Shown: one piece after another, positions 37,028 through 43,539 of the stretch
Position numbering within the stretch: position 1 is the first letter of the stretch
How the letters are laid out: each line of letters opens with the position of its first letter
Assembly (NCBI GenBank): GCA_024278455.1
Contig: JAJRTE010000107.1
Span: forward strand, 1 to 64,000
Direction of reading: 5' to 3'
Source of the DNA: Myxococcota bacterium
Lineage (GTDB): Bacteria; Myxococcota_A; UBA796; JAJRTE01
DNA: 64,000 nucleotides
Made by a program: the position numbers and the translations under genes
Notes under the pieces: model-generated
What the model was told of the DNA's origin: nothing
What the model saw: the letters and a program-made list of their open reading frames with translations, nothing else
The model's database searches: none

Positions 37028-37265
37028 TCCTTGCTGGCTCGTCGCTTCCAGGCGACAGGGGGGCGGTTGCACGTGGTCGCCCACCCGGTCCTTCCTTCCC
37101 GTGGCCTGCGCCGGGTCGCACCTTTCTCGAGCTGCCCGGCCCGGGATCCATGACGCGCTCCCCGGTTTCACGCTGATTCGGATCAATAATCTTTCCATTT
37201 TCCGGCCGCCGGGGTTCAAATGGATAGAGACACCATGAAGCCGTCAATCGGCCACGGAGTTGCCC
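37028..37265. other. Intergenic region before the ECF sigma operon
   Basis: 238 nt with an unusually AT-rich patch (about 37175-37202, ...GATCAATAATCTTTCC...). This is the natural place for an autoregulated ECF promoter, but I cannot define the boxes. A 21-codon ORF at 37220-37285 overlaps the sigma start in another frame and is likely chance. Confidence 0.35.
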
Positions 37266-37826
37266 GTGCAATTGTCTCGCACTGATATCCAGGATCTCTA
37301 CGAGCGGTATGCCCATGTCGTGCACCGCCGTTGCCTGTCGATCCTCCGTGACGAGGAGGACGCATACGATGCCATGCAGGAGGTCTTCGTGCGGCTCATC
37401 AAGCATGCAGACCAGTTTCGTGGCGAGGCTCAGCCCCTCACCTGGCTCTACCGGACGAGCACGAACCTGTGCCTGAACCGGATACGGGACCGCCGGTCCC
37501 GTGCCAGGAAGTTGGCTGAGCCCAACCCCGCCGCAGACACCTTGCCCGGCATGGGCGCGTTCTCGCGGATCGACCCGGAGCGCCGGCACCTGGTCGCGTC
37601 GTTGCTCGAAAAGGCCGACGAGTCGACCCGCGCGATCGTCCTCTACTACTTCGTCGACGAGATGACGTTGGAAGAGGTCTCCCGTATCGTGGGCGTGAGC
37701 GTGCCGACGATTCGCAAGCGGATCCGGCGATTCCAGCGGATCGCCGGGAAATCGGTTGGCAGAACCGCCTTGAGCGCGTGTCTCCTGGCGCTCGTCGGCG
37801 GTCTCGAAGCCTGGAGGGTGTCATGA
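37266..37826 (+). CDS. ECF-type sigma-70 family factor
   Basis: 186 residues from GTG 37266, chosen because GGAG lies 6 nt upstream; the track start TTG 37260 differs by two codons. Region 2 covers about 5-75 (LYERYAHVVHRRCLSILRDEEDAYDAMQEVFVRLI) and region 4 about 110-165 (LYYFVDEMTLEEVSRIVGVSVPTIRKRIRRF, a helix-turn-helix). Regions 1 and 3 are missing, which defines the ECF group. The last 20 residues are hydrophobic (LSACLLALVGGLEAW), unusual for a sigma factor. The stop overlaps the anti-sigma ATG by 4 nt. The operon also encodes a secreted caspase-like protein, suggesting an envelope-stress or developmental response. Confidence 0.9.
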   Translation: MQLSRTDIQDLYERYAHVVHRRCLSILRDEEDAYDAMQEVFVRLIKHADQFRGEAQPLTWLYRTSTNLCLNRIRDRRSRARKLAEPNPAADTLPGMGAFSRIDPERRHLVASLLEKADESTRAIVLYYFVDEMTLEEVSRIVGVSVPTIRKRIRRFQRIAGKSVGRTALSACLLALVGGLEAWRVS

Positions 37827-38734
37827 GCGTGCGAGACGAGGCGAAACCGGCCGTGTCACGAGCCTCCGGGTGCTTCTCGAGGTTCCTGCTCGAGCGTTAC
37901 CTGGCCGCGGAACTGGGTGACCCCGACGCCAGCCGTGTTGCAAGCCACCTCGAGGCCTGCGCGCGGTGCCAGGGGCTGCTCGAGACCCTCGAAAAGGAGA
38001 AGGCGGCCTTCCAGGACCGCGTCCCGTTCGACAGGTTCTACAGCGACCTCGAGGCGCGCCTTCGCCGGGATGCCACCGCCGATCGAGACGCCCGGCAGGC
38101 GACGCTCGAGATGTCTGGCGGCAGGGTGGGTTCCTGGCTGGAGCGCGTGCGGGCGTGGATCGCGGACTTTTCGCAATGGCTGGCCGGACCGCGGTGGGCG
38201 GTCGTCGCCGTCGTCGCCGTGGCGCTGGTGGTCGTGCTTCCACGAACGGGCGGCCTGATCCCCGGCGACCACGACGACGGATCCCGTATCAAGGCCACGG
38301 CCGTTCATCCCGGCCCGCTCGAGGTGGTGTTGCTCAGGGACGGCCGGATCGTGCAGGCGGTGAGCGGAGACCTGTTCCACCAGGGCGACAGGCTCCAGTT
38401 CAGGATCGCCCCCGGCACATGGCGGTTCCTGCACCTGGTCAGCCTGGATGACCAGGGAAGGCTCACCCCGTTCTACCCCGATGACGGGTCGGCCAGCCTC
38501 GAGCTGCGGCTTGACGCCGAACAGTTGTTGCCGGGTGCCATCGAACTCGACGACTTCGTGGGCCAGGAGCGGATTTTCGCCGTATTCAGCCAGGAGCCCC
38601 TGGACTATTCCGTCGTGGAGGAAGCTGCCAGGAGACTCGGGGCAGGCATGTCCCTGCCGCTCGACCTGGCGCGGATCGAGGAACTGCCCATCGATGGGAC
38701 GGCCCAGGTGTCCTTCCTGATGATCAAGGAGTAG
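37823..38734 (+). CDS. Membrane anti-sigma factor with zinc finger and extracytoplasmic domain
   Basis: 303 residues from ATG 37823, overlapping the sigma gene (ATGA). The N-terminus carries the anti-sigma zinc-finger pattern HLEACARC (His42, Cys46, Cys49). One membrane segment (about 124-140, RWAVVAVVAVALVVVLP) separates it from an extracytoplasmic domain of about 160 residues with VVLLRDGRIV and FLHLVSLDDQGRLTPFYPDDG, resembling DUF4384-type domains that often accompany caspase-like proteins. Expected role: hold the sigma factor inactive until an outside signal is sensed. The track start at 37778 lies within the sigma gene. Confidence 0.8.
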   Translation: MSVRDEAKPAVSRASGCFSRFLLERYLAAELGDPDASRVASHLEACARCQGLLETLEKEKAAFQDRVPFDRFYSDLEARLRRDATADRDARQATLEMSGGRVGSWLERVRAWIADFSQWLAGPRWAVVAVVAVALVVVLPRTGGLIPGDHDDGSRIKATAVHPGPLEVVLLRDGRIVQAVSGDLFHQGDRLQFRIAPGTWRFLHLVSLDDQGRLTPFYPDDGSASLELRLDAEQLLPGAIELDDFVGQERIFAVFSQEPLDYSVVEEAARRLGAGMSLPLDLARIEELPIDGTAQVSFLMIKE

Positions 38735-38741
38735 CCGGGAG

Positions 38742-40352
38742 ATGACGTGTCGAGCCCGCACAAGATGGCTCCTGTTCGCGGTCATCCTGGCGATCACCGG
38801 GAACCTGGACGCCGGCGAGATGCGCCGGTTCGGACTGTTCGTGGGAGAGAATGACGGAGGCGCTCGAGCACACAGGCTGCTGTACGCCGCCCAGGACGCT
38901 CGCACCATGCGGGACCTGCTGGTAGAACACGGTGCCATCGACCCGAACGACGCCAGGTTGCTCGTCGACGTGACCGAACGGGGGGTCCAGGACGCCATCC
39001 GGGCCATGGGCAAGCGGATTCGGGCGCACCGTGGCGCCGGGGGGCGCGCCACGCTCTTTTTCTACTACTCCGGGCATGGCGACAGCCAGGGCCTGCGGCT
39101 CCGCGATACCATCCTCGCGCTCGGTGCATTGAAACAGGCACTCCGGGACACCACGGCCGATCTGCGCATCGTCATGCTCGACGCCTGCCAGAGCGGCCAG
39201 GCCACCCGGCCCAAGGGCGGAACCAGGGCGCCCTCGTTCCTCGTCGAGGTGGACCGTGGGGAGAACCTGGCCGGCGAGGTCATCATCACCTCGAGCGCTG
39301 CGGACGAGGCGTCCCAGGAGTCGGACAGGATAGGAGGAGGCTATTTCACGCATCACCTGGCCACCGGCTTGAGAGGCGCCGCGGACATCTCTCGAGACGG
39401 GATGGTCACCCTGGAAGAGGCTTACGCCTATGCGTACAACAGGACCCTGTACGAGACTGCCGGGTCGGCGGTGGGTCTTCAGCACGCAGGATACGCGGCC
39501 GATCTGCGGGGGCACGGTACGCTCGTGCTGACCTGGCCGGCCGACGGCCAGACCGTCCTCGTGTTTCCCCCCGGGCTGAACGGCAGCTTCATGGTTTTCG
39601 ACCGGGACCGGAAGCTGTTCGTCGCCGACCTCGAGATGAACGGGCGTGACGAGCGGCGCCTGGCCTTGCCCGCCGGCCGCTACGTGGTCCAGAAGAGGGC
39701 GCCGGACCACCTGCTCACCACCGAGGTGTACCTGACTCGAGGCGTCATGCGCCAGGTCGACGAGAAGGAGATGACAGCCACCGGGTTCGAAGACGATTTC
39801 GCCAAGGGTGTGGAATTGGCGAACATTCGGCGAGCCACCCGCGTCCCGGTCCTGGTGAGCGGCCTCGCCGGCGTGCAGAAGTTCCTGTTGCAACCGGCGG
39901 GCACGCCCCTGTTCATCGACATGCCCATGGCGGGGCTCGAGGTCGAATGGCGCGGGCTGATAGGCCCGAACTGGTCCCTCACTGCCGACGTGATGACTGG
40001 CGTCGCGGAGACGACCCTGGATTTCTCCGCCTACGACGTGCCTACCTCGTACTGGCAGTTCAACGTCGGGCTGGGGTTGAAGTATGGCAGAAGCTGGGGG
40101 CCGTTGCGACTGTCGGCGGGGCCGCACGTCGGCAACCTGTACGTGCGCCGATCGTTCCCGGGCAGCATCGAGCCGCCGCAGGACTTCATGATGGTGTCAC
40201 CCGGCGTGATTGGAGAAGCCGCGCTTCGACTGACCCCGCGATTGGTCGTGGGCGTGCAGGGACGGAGCCACCTGCTATACTACTACGTGGAAGACGACGA
40301 TTTCAGCCTTGCCTACAGCGAGGCGCTGGTTCGAGCAACGGTGCGGTTTTGA
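38742..40352 (+). CDS. Secreted caspase-like (C14) protease with a barrel-like C-terminal domain
   Basis: 536 residues. A signal peptide (about 1-24, ending NLDA) is followed by a caspase/metacaspase fold: FGLFVGENDGG, AQDARTMRDLLVEHG, catalytic His112 in FFYYSGHGD and Cys149 in VMLDACQSG, then IITSSAADEASQES. Both catalytic residues are present. Residues about 255-350 form a beta domain with PAGRYVVQKR. The last 140 residues alternate polar and aromatic strands (WQFNVGLGLKYGRS, GPLRLSAGPHVGNLYV) and end VRATVRF with a terminal Phe, as outer-membrane barrels do. The gene begins 7 nt after the anti-sigma stop, with AAGGAG upstream. Substrate unknown; a surface-anchored protease is the best reading. 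Confidence 0.8.
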   Translation: MTCRARTRWLLFAVILAITGNLDAGEMRRFGLFVGENDGGARAHRLLYAAQDARTMRDLLVEHGAIDPNDARLLVDVTERGVQDAIRAMGKRIRAHRGAGGRATLFFYYSGHGDSQGLRLRDTILALGALKQALRDTTADLRIVMLDACQSGQATRPKGGTRAPSFLVEVDRGENLAGEVIITSSAADEASQESDRIGGGYFTHHLATGLRGAADISRDGMVTLEEAYAYAYNRTLYETAGSAVGLQHAGYAADLRGHGTLVLTWPADGQTVLVFPPGLNGSFMVFDRDRKLFVADLEMNGRDERRLALPAGRYVVQKRAPDHLLTTEVYLTRGVMRQVDEKEMTATGFEDDFAKGVELANIRRATRVPVLVSGLAGVQKFLLQPAGTPLFIDMPMAGLEVEWRGLIGPNWSLTADVMTGVAETTLDFSAYDVPTSYWQFNVGLGLKYGRSWGPLRLSAGPHVGNLYVRRSFPGSIEPPQDFMMVSPGVIGEAALRLTPRLVVGVQGRSHLLYYYVEDDDFSLAYSEALVRATVRF

Positions 40353-40425
40353 GAATAACCTCACGCGCGCGCCCTCGAGAAGCAGGAGCATGGCGCACGC
40401 CCGATTCTCCGGCGAGGACGATACC

Positions 40426-41538
40426 ATGAGAGCTTCAACGATGACAGGCGCAAGAGCAGGAACCGGCACCACGACCGGCAGTGCCGGTGCCGGGATTCTG
40501 ACCGGCCGTGCAGTGGTGGCCTTGGCCGCTGCGACCGCACTCCTGGCCCCGTCCGGGTGTGGGGAGCCGTTCACGAACGCCCTGTTCGAGGAGGACATCC
40601 TCTACCTGGACGCCCTCCCTTCCGATGTCCTCTACGTGGACACCCCGGAGGATTCCGGAGGAAGTGTCTCGCGCCCCGCCCCCGCGGAGGCAGCAGCAGC
40701 ACTCCCCGCAGCCTGCGCGGCGGCAACCAACCCCTGCGACCCCGACATGTTGCGGCAGTTTACGGTCCAGGTCGCCAGGAGTCTGAACGAACAGATCTAC
40801 TACCTCCTGTCGCTCCTGGACAAGATTCGGACGTTCGATCCCACCCTGCGCACGGACAATAGCCGGGTCTGGGGCCCCATTCTCGTGCCAGGCAGCGACG
40901 TGTATGTCCGCCTGGAGGTCACTCGAGGCACCGCGACCTTCTCCTACGAGATGACCCTGTCCTACGACCCGAACGACCCCACCGACATCGTTCTGGCGGG
41001 CTTCTATCGCCCGGGATCGACCGCCGACGAAGGGGTCGGGCAGTTCTCATACAGCTTCACCGTGCACCGCGACTACTTCCCCGATGAGGTGTCGATGGAC
41101 GGCGAGATGGACGTCGCCTACTCCACGCTCGGCGACGAGGTCGACCTCGACGTCACCCTCGACGACATGGGAGAGCCCGGTGAAGAGCCGTTCGATGCCG
41201 CCTATGCCTTCTACGCCCCGGGCGATGGGTCGGGACTCTTCTACTTCAGCCAGGAAGCGGAGATCGTCGAGCCCGACGAAGGAGAGCCGCAGCTCCTCGA
41301 ACAGGCGTCGATCTGGAGCGGTTGGAAAGAAGACGGTTGGGGACGGGCGGACATCAGGTATTATGGAGGGAACCTCGGCGACGTGGTCGCCGGTGGGGTC
41401 GAGTGCTGGGACCCTGGACAGACACCGGTCTACGCCTACTTGGCCGGGTGCGTCTACGATCCCTCCTTGTGGGATGCCACTCTGTGTATCGAACCATCCA
41501 TCGGATGGAACGAGGAGACCGATGAAACAACTCGATAA
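40426..41538 (+). CDS. Lipoprotein of unknown function downstream of the caspase gene
   Basis: 370 residues from ATG 40426, chosen for GAGG 8 nt upstream; ATG 40390 is an alternative and the track start at 40309 overlaps the caspase gene. After a Thr/Gly/Ala-rich N-terminus comes a lipobox (LLAPSGC, Cys45). The mature part has an Ala/Pro stretch, a helix (LRQFTVQVARSLNEQIYYLLSLLDKIRT) and acidic beta-rich sequence (VSMDGEMDVAYSTLGDEVDLDVTLDDMGE). Three late cysteine-containing strands (GVECWDPG, AGCVYDP, ATLCIEP) may form disulphides. The gene is 73 nt from the caspase stop and may belong to that operon. Family not recognised. Confidence 0.6.
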   Translation: MRASTMTGARAGTGTTTGSAGAGILTGRAVVALAAATALLAPSGCGEPFTNALFEEDILYLDALPSDVLYVDTPEDSGGSVSRPAPAEAAAALPAACAAATNPCDPDMLRQFTVQVARSLNEQIYYLLSLLDKIRTFDPTLRTDNSRVWGPILVPGSDVYVRLEVTRGTATFSYEMTLSYDPNDPTDIVLAGFYRPGSTADEGVGQFSYSFTVHRDYFPDEVSMDGEMDVAYSTLGDEVDLDVTLDDMGEPGEEPFDAAYAFYAPGDGSGLFYFSQEAEIVEPDEGEPQLLEQASIWSGWKEDGWGRADIRYYGGNLGDVVAGGVECWDPGQTPVYAYLAGCVYDPSLWDATLCIEPSIGWNEETDETTR

Positions 41539-41682: not shown

Positions 41683-43539
41683 ATGCAACAGGTTCCCATT
41701 CGCGCACCACGACATCGTGCCCGCAGACCTCGGGCCGACCGGCAACTCCCGGTAGGCTTGGCGCTCCTCGCCGTCGCACTCCTCGCCATTCGATGTGGCG
41801 GGGATGACCCCGGCGCCCAGTTGGCCTGTTCGCCCGGAGACACGCCGTGTGCCACACGGACACCGGGCCCGGACGGACAATCGACCGGGACTCCGTGTCC
41901 CACATCCCCGGCCTGTGCCTCGCCGACGCCCTCTCCTTCGCCGGCCGCCACCCCGACGCCCCCCCTCACCCCGACGCCCACCCCCACCCCGACGCCCACC
42001 CCCACCCAGTTCCCGGACATCCAACTGCTCGACGCTCCCAATCCCGACAATCCACAATCCCGCGCGTTCGACATCGCGCTCGAGACCGCACAGGCCGTCA
42101 TCCTCGAGTGTGTCCAGGACGGCGACGACCAGGAACGCCATCGCCTCTCATCCCCCCCACAGCGCGACCACCACCTCGTGCTGTACGGCCTCAAGGCCGA
42201 TACCTCGTACCACTGCGACGCGGCCATCGACGGCATGCCGGACAGGCGGTCGAACGACGTGACCTTCCACACAGATCCGCTCCCGCCGGATCTCTACTCG
42301 CCGGTCGTCTCGGTTCCCCCCTCGGACCCTGCTGCGGTGGGCTATACGCTCATCAACTATGCCCTCATGGACGACGACTCGTGGTCCTACTCCGGTGACC
42401 GGCTCGTCATTCTGGACCCGCTCGGCGATGTGCGCTGGTACTACGACGAGGGGGGCGGCGGCGATGTGGAGGTCACCTACGCCGGAAACAATCTCATACT
42501 ATTCGGCGGAATGGCCAACACATACAACAACCCGACGCTGGTAGACCTCGACAGGACCGAGGTCTTTCACGCTGCCTCGAGCCAACTCGTGGATTACGAG
42601 ATCGCCGGCACGTTTCATCACGATACCGGCATGTCACAGGCCGGGGGCACGATCTTCGCCATGACCAAGACGAAGATCGACAACATCTGGCGGGGGTTCA
42701 TCATCCGCGAGATCGATGTCGCGACCGGCGACGTCGTCTGGTGGTGGGACGCCTATGCCGATGGCGTACTGGCTGGCTGGCTCGAGCCCGGTTCCGAGCA
42801 GGACCTCGACCCCTACCACGCCAACTCGGTGCAAGATCGGTGGGAAAACGGGCGCTGCTACATCTATCTCGGCATGCGGAACCTCAACCAGATGGTCAAG
42901 ATCGACTATGAAACCAAGGACGTGCTCTGGCGCCTGGGATACAAGGGCGATTTCGTCCTCCTCGAGGCCGACGGATCGCTGGCCGAACCGGAACGTTGGT
43001 TCTTCCATCAGCATGATGCGAAGCGCGAGGGGCAGTACGTGCTCGTCTATGACAACGGCAAGACGCGCAACGAGGTCGGGGGCGAGGAATACTCGCGGGC
43101 CCTGGTGCTCGAGTTGGACGAAGAGGCGGCAACGGCGACCATCGTGCTCGAGTACACCGAGGATGGGTGGTTCGAGCCCATCTGGGGGGGGCTGGATCTG
43201 CTTGACAACGGTCATTTTCTCATCGCCATCGGCCATTGCCCGTTGTGCGTCTCCACGCCGCGCACCAGTGCGTTGATCGAAATCGACCCGGCGGGTAACG
43301 TCGTGTGGCGGTTGGACTATCAGCGAGAGAACGAGGTGTTCTATCGAGCGGACCGGGTGGACGGGTGCGCGTTGTTCCACAATGTCGCGTTCTGCCCGGC
43401 GCTCGATGACCCTTCTGGCGAGGAGGCTTCCTCGAATCATGGGGGCGATGAAGTGAGGGCGGCCCCTGGTCCGCGTGGCCCTGCAGGAGGCGTCAGTCCT
43501 TCATCACGGCCTGGATACCCCGGAAGACGAGATAGATGA
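41683..43539 (+). CDS. Arylsulfotransferase-like lipoprotein
   Basis: 618 residues. Lipobox LLAIRC (Cys38), a Pro/Thr linker (about 85-108), then a domain matching the arylsulfotransferase (ASST) family: LIFFGG-like LILFGGMANTY, FHHDTGM, DPYHANSVQ, and the signature FFHQHDAKREGQYVLVYDNGKTR. In E. coli CKB-type ASST the catalytic histidines lie in such segments and transfer sulfate between phenols in the periplasm; activity here is inferred. The tail after about residue 585 (GEEASSNHGGDEVRAAPGPRG...) is low-complexity, and its last 47 nt overlap tail to tail with the small gene at 43493-43678. The sequence between 41539 and 41682 holds nothing I recognise. Confidence 0.7.
   Translation: MQQVPIRAPRHRARRPRADRQLPVGLALLAVALLAIRCGGDDPGAQLACSPGDTPCATRTPGPDGQSTGTPCPTSPACASPTPSPSPAATPTPPLTPTPTPTPTPTPTQFPDIQLLDAPNPDNPQSRAFDIALETAQAVILECVQDGDDQERHRLSSPPQRDHHLVLYGLKADTSYHCDAAIDGMPDRRSNDVTFHTDPLPPDLYSPVVSVPPSDPAAVGYTLINYALMDDDSWSYSGDRLVILDPLGDVRWYYDEGGGGDVEVTYAGNNLILFGGMANTYNNPTLVDLDRTEVFHAASSQLVDYEIAGTFHHDTGMSQAGGTIFAMTKTKIDNIWRGFIIREIDVATGDVVWWWDAYADGVLAGWLEPGSEQDLDPYHANSVQDRWENGRCYIYLGMRNLNQMVKIDYETKDVLWRLGYKGDFVLLEADGSLAEPERWFFHQHDAKREGQYVLVYDNGKTRNEVGGEEYSRALVLELDEEAATATIVLEYTEDGWFEPIWGGLDLLDNGHFLIAIGHCPLCVSTPRTSALIEIDPAGNVVWRLDYQRENEVFYRADRVDGCALFHNVAFCPALDDPSGEEASSNHGGDEVRAAPGPRGPAGGVSPSSRPGYPGRRDR
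41950..42009 (+). repeat. Pro/Thr linker microrepeat in the arylsulfotransferase gene
   Basis: Short iterations of ACCCCGACGCCC encode alternating Thr-Pro residues between the lipid anchor and the sulfotransferase domain. The unit CCGACGCCCACCCCCACC occurs twice in tandem. Such tracts are prone to slippage and serve as flexible spacers. Confidence 0.7.

Follow-up and report, generated by a model that had tools for sequence, protein, structure and literature searches.

An ECF sigma factor operon of a Myxococcota bacterium that encodes an exported caspase with a predicted outer-membrane barrel

Most bacterial caspase homologues have no known role and are commonly discussed as cell-death enzymes. 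Operons pairing sigma-70 factors with metacaspases have been described in Myxococcus, Anaeromyxobacter, Haliangium, Sorangium, Ralstonia, and Fibrobacter, and sigma-70 genes are found in four of the five caspase operons of M. xanthus (Asplund-Samuelsson 2012, PMC3501461). A caspase is likewise accompanied by an ECF sigma gene in the EACC1/EACC2 systems (PMC8195603). In Craspase (Csx29/Csx30/CASP-sigma), the substrate of a caspase-fold protease inhibits an ECF-like sigma, and there is thus a precedent for the cleavage of a sigma inhibitor by such a protease (PMC10028731). Cell-surface signalling systems such as FecIRA and FoxIRA co-encode an ECF sigma factor, an inner-membrane anti-sigma, and an outer-membrane barrel protein (PMC11637429). 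Envelope stress is transmitted by RseA/DegS/RseP, where the membrane anti-sigma undergoes site-1 cleavage in the periplasm; the RseA-DegS pair is also mentioned in PMC10028731.

How does the locus described here compare with these systems? The window, a stretch of 64,000 nucleotides from a Myxococcota bacterium (contig JAJRTE010000107.1), contains the genes listed in Table 1. Like the operons of PMC3501461, the locus joins a caspase homologue and a sigma factor in one operon, but the relevant sections of that report contain no DUF4384 anti-sigma, outer-membrane barrel, companion lipoprotein, promoter, or regulon. In contrast to cell-surface signalling, the place of the TonB-dependent receptor is taken by a caspase whose predicted eight-stranded barrel would lie in the outer membrane; no TonB-receptor domain was matched in this protein with Pfam, and the locus does not qualify as such a system. 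Craspase is RNA-activated, of the TPR-CHAT type, and not exported, whereas the window encodes an exported C14 protein alongside a membrane anti-sigma; neither CHAT nor TPR was matched in the caspase with Pfam, so it does not qualify as a Craspase either. Against the model of the EACC1-associated caspase (NCBIfam caspase_w_EACC1, NF047832) it scores 69 bits, below the cut-off of 140. As in RseA/DegS/RseP, a membrane anti-sigma would undergo site-1 cleavage in the periplasm, but by an outer-membrane-anchored caspase and not by an inner-membrane serine protease. Craspase is therefore the closest functional precedent, while cell-surface signalling has the closest layout.

Sigma-caspase operons have been known since 2012; within the open-access literature searched, the predicted barrel anchor, the DUF4384 partner, the lipoprotein, and the candidate regulon appear to be new. 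That search, which did not reach the main ECF classification paper, returned no report of an outer-membrane-anchored caspase, nor of a DUF4384 partner, companion lipoprotein, or regulon of caspase operons. An ECF pathway with a protease as its outer-membrane component would, to our knowledge, be a first.

Table 1. Features of the sigma-caspase locus, in window coordinates
Feature	Start codon	Coordinates	Strand	Remarks
Promoter-like motif CTTTC-N16-GGGTTC		37191..37217	+	one mismatch from family motif CTTTC-N17-GGGTC
ECF sigma factor (regions 2 and 4)	GTG	37266..37826	+	Sigma70_r2, TIGR02937; alternative start TTG 37260
Membrane anti-sigma	ATG	37823..38734	+	zf-HC2 with HxxxCxxC, TM, DUF4384-like domain
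Exported caspase	ATG	38742..40352	+	signal peptide, C14 domain, beta domain, predicted eight-stranded barrel
Companion lipoprotein	ATG	40426..41538	+	lipobox APSG-C45, conserved post-lipobox motif

The sigma and anti-sigma genes overlap by 4 nt (ATGA), the caspase gene begins after a gap of 7 nt, and 73 nt separate its stop from the lipoprotein start. The initial annotation, made from the sequence alone, had given this layout (4-nt overlap, 7-nt gap, lipoprotein downstream), and it held in full. Downstream, a gene at 41683-43539 begins 145 nt past the lipoprotein; its product resembles arylsulfotransferases (PF05935, 87 bits) and has a possible lipobox. No conserved membership of this gene in the operon was noticed, although no dedicated search for it was made. 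The sigma protein matches only regions 2 and 4, both above curated Pfam cut-offs (Sigma70_r2, 61.9 bits, E 5e-17, cut-off 24; Sigma70_r4_2, 29.6 bits, cut-off 25.7), and TIGR02937 at 83 bits (cut-off 42.9); it thus meets the definition of an ECF factor. The anti-sigma has the zinc motif (HLEACARC) and the single transmembrane segment (around residues 126-142; TM score 2.45) that define a zinc anti-sigma (ZAS). Its zf-HC2 match of 22.2 bits is exactly at the Pfam cut-off, and only 4 of 26 members of the anti-sigma family match zf-HC2 at E<=0.01. Residues 185-259 form a DUF4384-like domain, which scores 18.9 bits against PF14326, below the gathering cut-off of 27; at E<=0.01 DUF4384 was matched in 11 of the 26 family members, the best at 1.5e-7.

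Could this gene order have arisen by chance? This is excluded, because the whole order is conserved in relatives. A caspase match was found in 35 of 39 genomes searched (the source genome and 38 of the same class), and a scan of a species-genome collection gave 280 caspase relatives, the best 80 of which were analysed. Type A (48/80) can be aligned to the C-terminus and the remaining 32 are type B; two type A members (L126 and L131) have long type-B-like proteins, and LA_2272 surface repeats were matched in one (L123) of the two type B proteins that were tested. By record title, the relatives are mostly Myxococcota and Deltaproteobacteria, with others from Spirochaetes, Fibrobacter, Gammaproteobacteria, and Eisenbacteria. 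Five records (L085, L086, L096, L108, and L118) are titled Klebsiella pneumoniae or Bifidobacterium breve; they group with Myxococcota or deltaproteobacterial relatives and are probably mislabelled MAGs.

Linkage was counted in the 66 relatives with more than 2 kb upstream of the caspase. A sigma gene lies upstream on the same strand in 61 of them and both sigma and anti-sigma in 60 (type A, 38/39 and 37/39; type B, 23/27 and 23/27). The 4-nt overlap recurs at 46 of 67 sigma/anti-sigma junctions and at 31 of 72 anti-sigma/caspase junctions. The initial annotation had proposed looking for the operon in other genomes, and by these counts the linkage held. In a systematic sample, drawn so as not to depend on a search with the window caspase, one in three of the C14 matches listed for 58 class genomes was taken (50 loci, window excluded); an ECF sigma gene was found no more than 2.5 kb upstream in 28 of 50, or 27 of the 43 with more than 2 kb upstream. 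With just 28 Sigma70_r2 matches across the 7.03 Mb of the source genome, chance linkage comes, by our own arithmetic, to about 0.005 per caspase, and yet all five C14 matches of this genome lie behind a sigma gene (a weak sixth match, on C315, is not included). These five caspases have export signals and barrel-like C-terminal ends as read from their sequences, and three resemble lipoproteins. Pairwise distances covary between sigma and caspase (Spearman 0.72) and between anti-sigma and caspase (0.75), against permuted maxima of 0.15 and 0.14, although covariation is also expected from simple vertical co-inheritance. The linkage is strong, and the system is real and conserved. The four further sigma/anti-sigma/exported-caspase sets of the source genome (L006, L007, L008, and L009, on contigs C105, C3, C133, and C97) encode caspases of more distant subfamilies, with barrel-like C-termini.

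The caspase matches Peptidase_C14 (Pfam, 43 bits). An AlphaFold model, built with an alignment of 45 relatives, all from related loci that had been found, reached a pLDDT of 90.1 and a pTM of 0.81 and contains a caspase fold (approximately residues 24-267), a beta domain (271-338), and a C-terminal barrel (370-535). In structural superposition, residues 24-267 match both metacaspase-4 and caspase-7 (Z about 20; for metacaspase-4, Z 20.7 and rmsd 2.8 over 208), and the closest sequences with a solved structure are metacaspases. The His112/Cys149 dyad is invariant in an alignment of 46 type A sequences. Fold and dyad thus place the protein in Peptidase C14, while its proteolytic activity is inferred. 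The invariant D52 aligns with the S1-pocket Asp of metacaspases, and D147 precedes Cys149 as it does in metacaspases. Since the dyad and the aligned S1-pocket Asp are both invariant in type A, catalysis appears to be under selection. Metacaspases cut after Arg or Lys. The same is reported for orthocaspases (PMC6426788), and a basic P1 preference of the window caspase may be inferred from its alignment to metacaspases. A loop, D215-x-S-x-D219-G-x-V-T-x-x-E226, is compatible with a calcium EF-hand as read from alignments.

The C-terminal part of the model consists of eight long strands. Its top PDB matches with Foldseek are OmpA (E 6e-9), NspA (9e-8), Ail, and OmpX (1.4e-6), with OmpW lower; target TM values for OmpA, NspA, and OmpX are 0.67-0.75. 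Strand amphipathy is 3.62 in the barrel, against 1.94 for the soluble strands of the same protein and 1.99 for the strands of the lipoprotein; the score takes the best nine-residue stretch and is biased toward long strands. Of 49 type A proteins, 34, including that of the window, end in Phe and 37 in an aromatic residue. Because the Foldseek matches, the amphipathy, and the C-terminal Phe agree, an eight-stranded barrel of the OmpA/OmpX type is well supported as a prediction, from which outer-membrane residence is inferred. The even number of strands and the C-terminal aromatic residue imply, from how such barrels are built, that both barrel ends face the periplasm; the protease domain would therefore do so too. 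As for the initial annotation, the His112/Cys149 dyad and the C-terminal Phe held, as did the signal peptide, which remains a signal-peptide-like stretch read from sequence alone. Its barrel-like anchor is supported, as structure prediction gave a barrel at the C-terminus and not a soluble domain, and its outer-membrane caspase is supported as a prediction, without localisation data.

Which part of the anti-sigma belongs with the caspase? Loci L123 and L149 have no adjacent sigma gene and L150 has its sigma pair in divergent orientation, but in each the gene directly upstream of the caspase encodes a transmembrane segment and a DUF4384-like domain without the zf-HC2 part. The periplasmic domain therefore seems to be the constant partner of the caspase, and the sigma-binding part is likely to be dispensable in a few loci. 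The sigma/anti-sigma pair of L155 and that of L157 are transcribed divergently from the caspase gene, and neither partner was found upstream of the caspase of L126, a member of this family. DUF4384 domains are rare among genomes of the class: 58 genomes gave 16 matches, of which nine adjoin a caspase gene and one lies inside one (read off coordinates; for G023, a caspase-like match was used). Just after the transmembrane segment, 57 of 77 partners have an R/K-x-K/R-G motif and 20 do not; the juxtamembrane site of the window anti-sigma is RIKA and not RxKG. We also considered whether R-x-K-G is a generic DUF4384 feature. It is absent from L163 and L170, the two readable DUF4384 proteins with no caspase neighbour, but also from the caspase-linked L167, and four minus-strand loci could not be used.

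The motif CTTTC-N16/17-GGGTC, with at most one mismatch, occurs in 30 of 43 regions upstream of type A sigma genes, against 11 of 860 shuffles. It was not found upstream of type A anti-sigma (0/45), caspase (0/49), or lipoprotein (0/44) genes, and it is present once in the window. Type B sigma genes are preceded by a different motif, GTGAC-N17-GTGTT (at most one mismatch in 14/24; anti-sigma 3/28, caspase 3/32). Conservation before sigma genes and absence before the other genes of the operon suggest that it is autoregulated by its sigma; this is likely, but rests on motif position only, without expression data. The 'membrane stress switch' of the initial annotation is strengthened by the conserved motif, and its inducing signal has not been identified.

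Does the sigma factor act beyond its own operon? A strict motif, CTTTC-N17-GGGTC[CG]AA, has 26 sites in 58 genomes of the class, compared with six for the reversed pattern. Nine of these precede caspase-linked sigma genes. Under a fixed rule, 12 of the remaining 17 are followed by a lipoprotein gene at a distance of no more than 60 bp (13 when judged by eye), and three of these genes belong to the companion family. Random positions precede a lipoprotein gene in 247 of 20,000 cases (1.2%), a background that understates chance for sites already known to precede genes; a stricter control needs gene calls. In a replicate with the variant [GT]TTTC motif (38 sites against 16 in the control, in 71 genomes overlapping the first 58), a lipoprotein gene follows 14 of the 34 sites left after removal of four sigma sites (family f3, 11/18; elsewhere, three of 16). 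Among these last 16 is L283, a copy of a sigma start truncated by its contig and not recognised by the sigma model. The type B motif has nine sites against one in the control, including at least three at sigma/anti-sigma genes and two at lipoprotein genes (by eye). In the source genome, CTTTC-N15..18-GGGTTC has 19 sites against eight for the reversed control, and none of the 18 non-sigma sites precedes an obvious lipoprotein gene. That the sigma drives a set of lipoprotein genes in relatives is thus supported by motif position, with no expression data. The lipoprotein genes behind CTTTC-N17-GGGTC (L220-L245, L265-L302) are of many kinds: hydrolase-like, companion family, and unknown. One type B site (L306) precedes a protein with LA_2272-like repeats, the kind of module that also ends the type B caspase L123.

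The companion lipoprotein gene follows 43 of 48 type A caspases and no type B caspase. The motif after its lipobox is of the type CGxxSNxxFxEDAxFLAALP, and the protein has no Pfam match. Its structural model has a pLDDT of 89.3, with no Foldseek match at E<=0.001; the best VIA Z scores are 9.0 at rmsd 3.8 (OspA) and 8.8 at rmsd 7.4 (OmpF). Given these weak matches and the empty Foldseek search, no known fold was assigned.

How might these components work together? We propose an autoregulated trans-envelope pathway in which the outer-membrane caspase acts on the anti-sigma, a reading that we consider as likely to be wrong as right. By its sequence, the anti-sigma keeps the ECF sigma at the inner membrane and has its own DUF4384-like domain exposed on the periplasmic side, while the predicted barrel would anchor the caspase in the outer membrane with its protease domain toward the periplasm. 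A cue at the outer surface or in the envelope, for which the barrel and the companion lipoprotein may be the sensors, would switch the caspase. The caspase may then cut the anti-sigma on its periplasmic side after Arg or Lys, possibly within the juxtamembrane R-x-K-G. An S2P protease, of which the source genome has a homologue (E 2e-65), would complete the cleavage and free the sigma. From the conserved motif, the freed sigma would transcribe the operon that encodes it and, in relatives, lipoprotein genes, a step that rests on motif position only. The initial annotation's suggestion that the protease might cleave the anti-sigma therefore remains an inference without cleavage data. Architecture, linkage, and motif are shown; whether the caspase acts on the anti-sigma or the sigma on the caspase is undecided. 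Against the mechanism, the two proteins would be in different membranes and would have to meet across the periplasm; the RIKA site of the window, the partners lacking the motif (20/77), L126, and the absence of a lipoprotein regulon in the source genome also count against it. In a bolder form, to which we would give rather less than even weight as a whole, cleavage of the inner-membrane anti-sigma by the tethered caspase lets outer-membrane or lipoprotein-traffic events switch a lipoprotein regulon, and the design recurs in several divergent caspase subfamilies, with five copies in the source genome.

Alternatively, the caspase may be the output: the anti-sigma would sense envelope damage through its DUF4384-like domain, the sigma would raise the level of the outer-membrane caspase, and the caspase would mature, shed, or degrade lipoproteins or other periplasmic proteins. 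This remains possible. The motif precedes lipoprotein genes in relatives and a dedicated lipoprotein is encoded after 43 of 48 type A caspases, so lipoproteins could be the substrates; moreover, the companion has its own conserved fold. However, the DUF4384-like part without a sigma-binding domain stays beside the caspase in three loci, which suggests direct partnership over mere co-expression. A non-proteolytic analogue of cell-surface signalling appears unlikely; here the caspase domain would shield the anti-sigma by binding it, much like the signalling domain of FoxA, and catalysis would act elsewhere or on the caspase itself. This reading has in its favour the shared layout of sigma, anti-sigma, and outer-membrane barrel and the protection by an outer-membrane transducer reported for Fox (PMC11637429), but the dyad and S1-pocket Asp are invariant in 46 type A sequences. 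A regulated cell-death or defence module is very unlikely: caspase-family proteases often serve in such systems, there is a weak PADLOC 'caspase' match (E 6.5e-5), and ECF sigma genes are known from EACC2-caspase systems (PMC8195603), but this caspase is exported, with a predicted outer-membrane anchor, and not cytosolic, and motif sites lie before lipoprotein genes. Nothing beyond the weak caspase match was found with PADLOC, and a phage link was rejected because a collection of viral contigs gave only three weak caspase matches.

If the trans-envelope reading is true, this would be a new bacterial route by which envelope signals are passed to genes through an outer-membrane-tethered protease. 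A large and widely spread group of caspases appears to be part of envelope signalling, and its role can be tested directly, since candidates for its substrate partner and its regulon are available, together with a promoter-like motif. Gene number also varies among the loci: in L070 and L158 two tandem caspase genes lie behind one sigma/anti-sigma pair, and in L080, L081, L095, and L100 two consecutive companion-lipoprotein genes lie downstream of the caspase.
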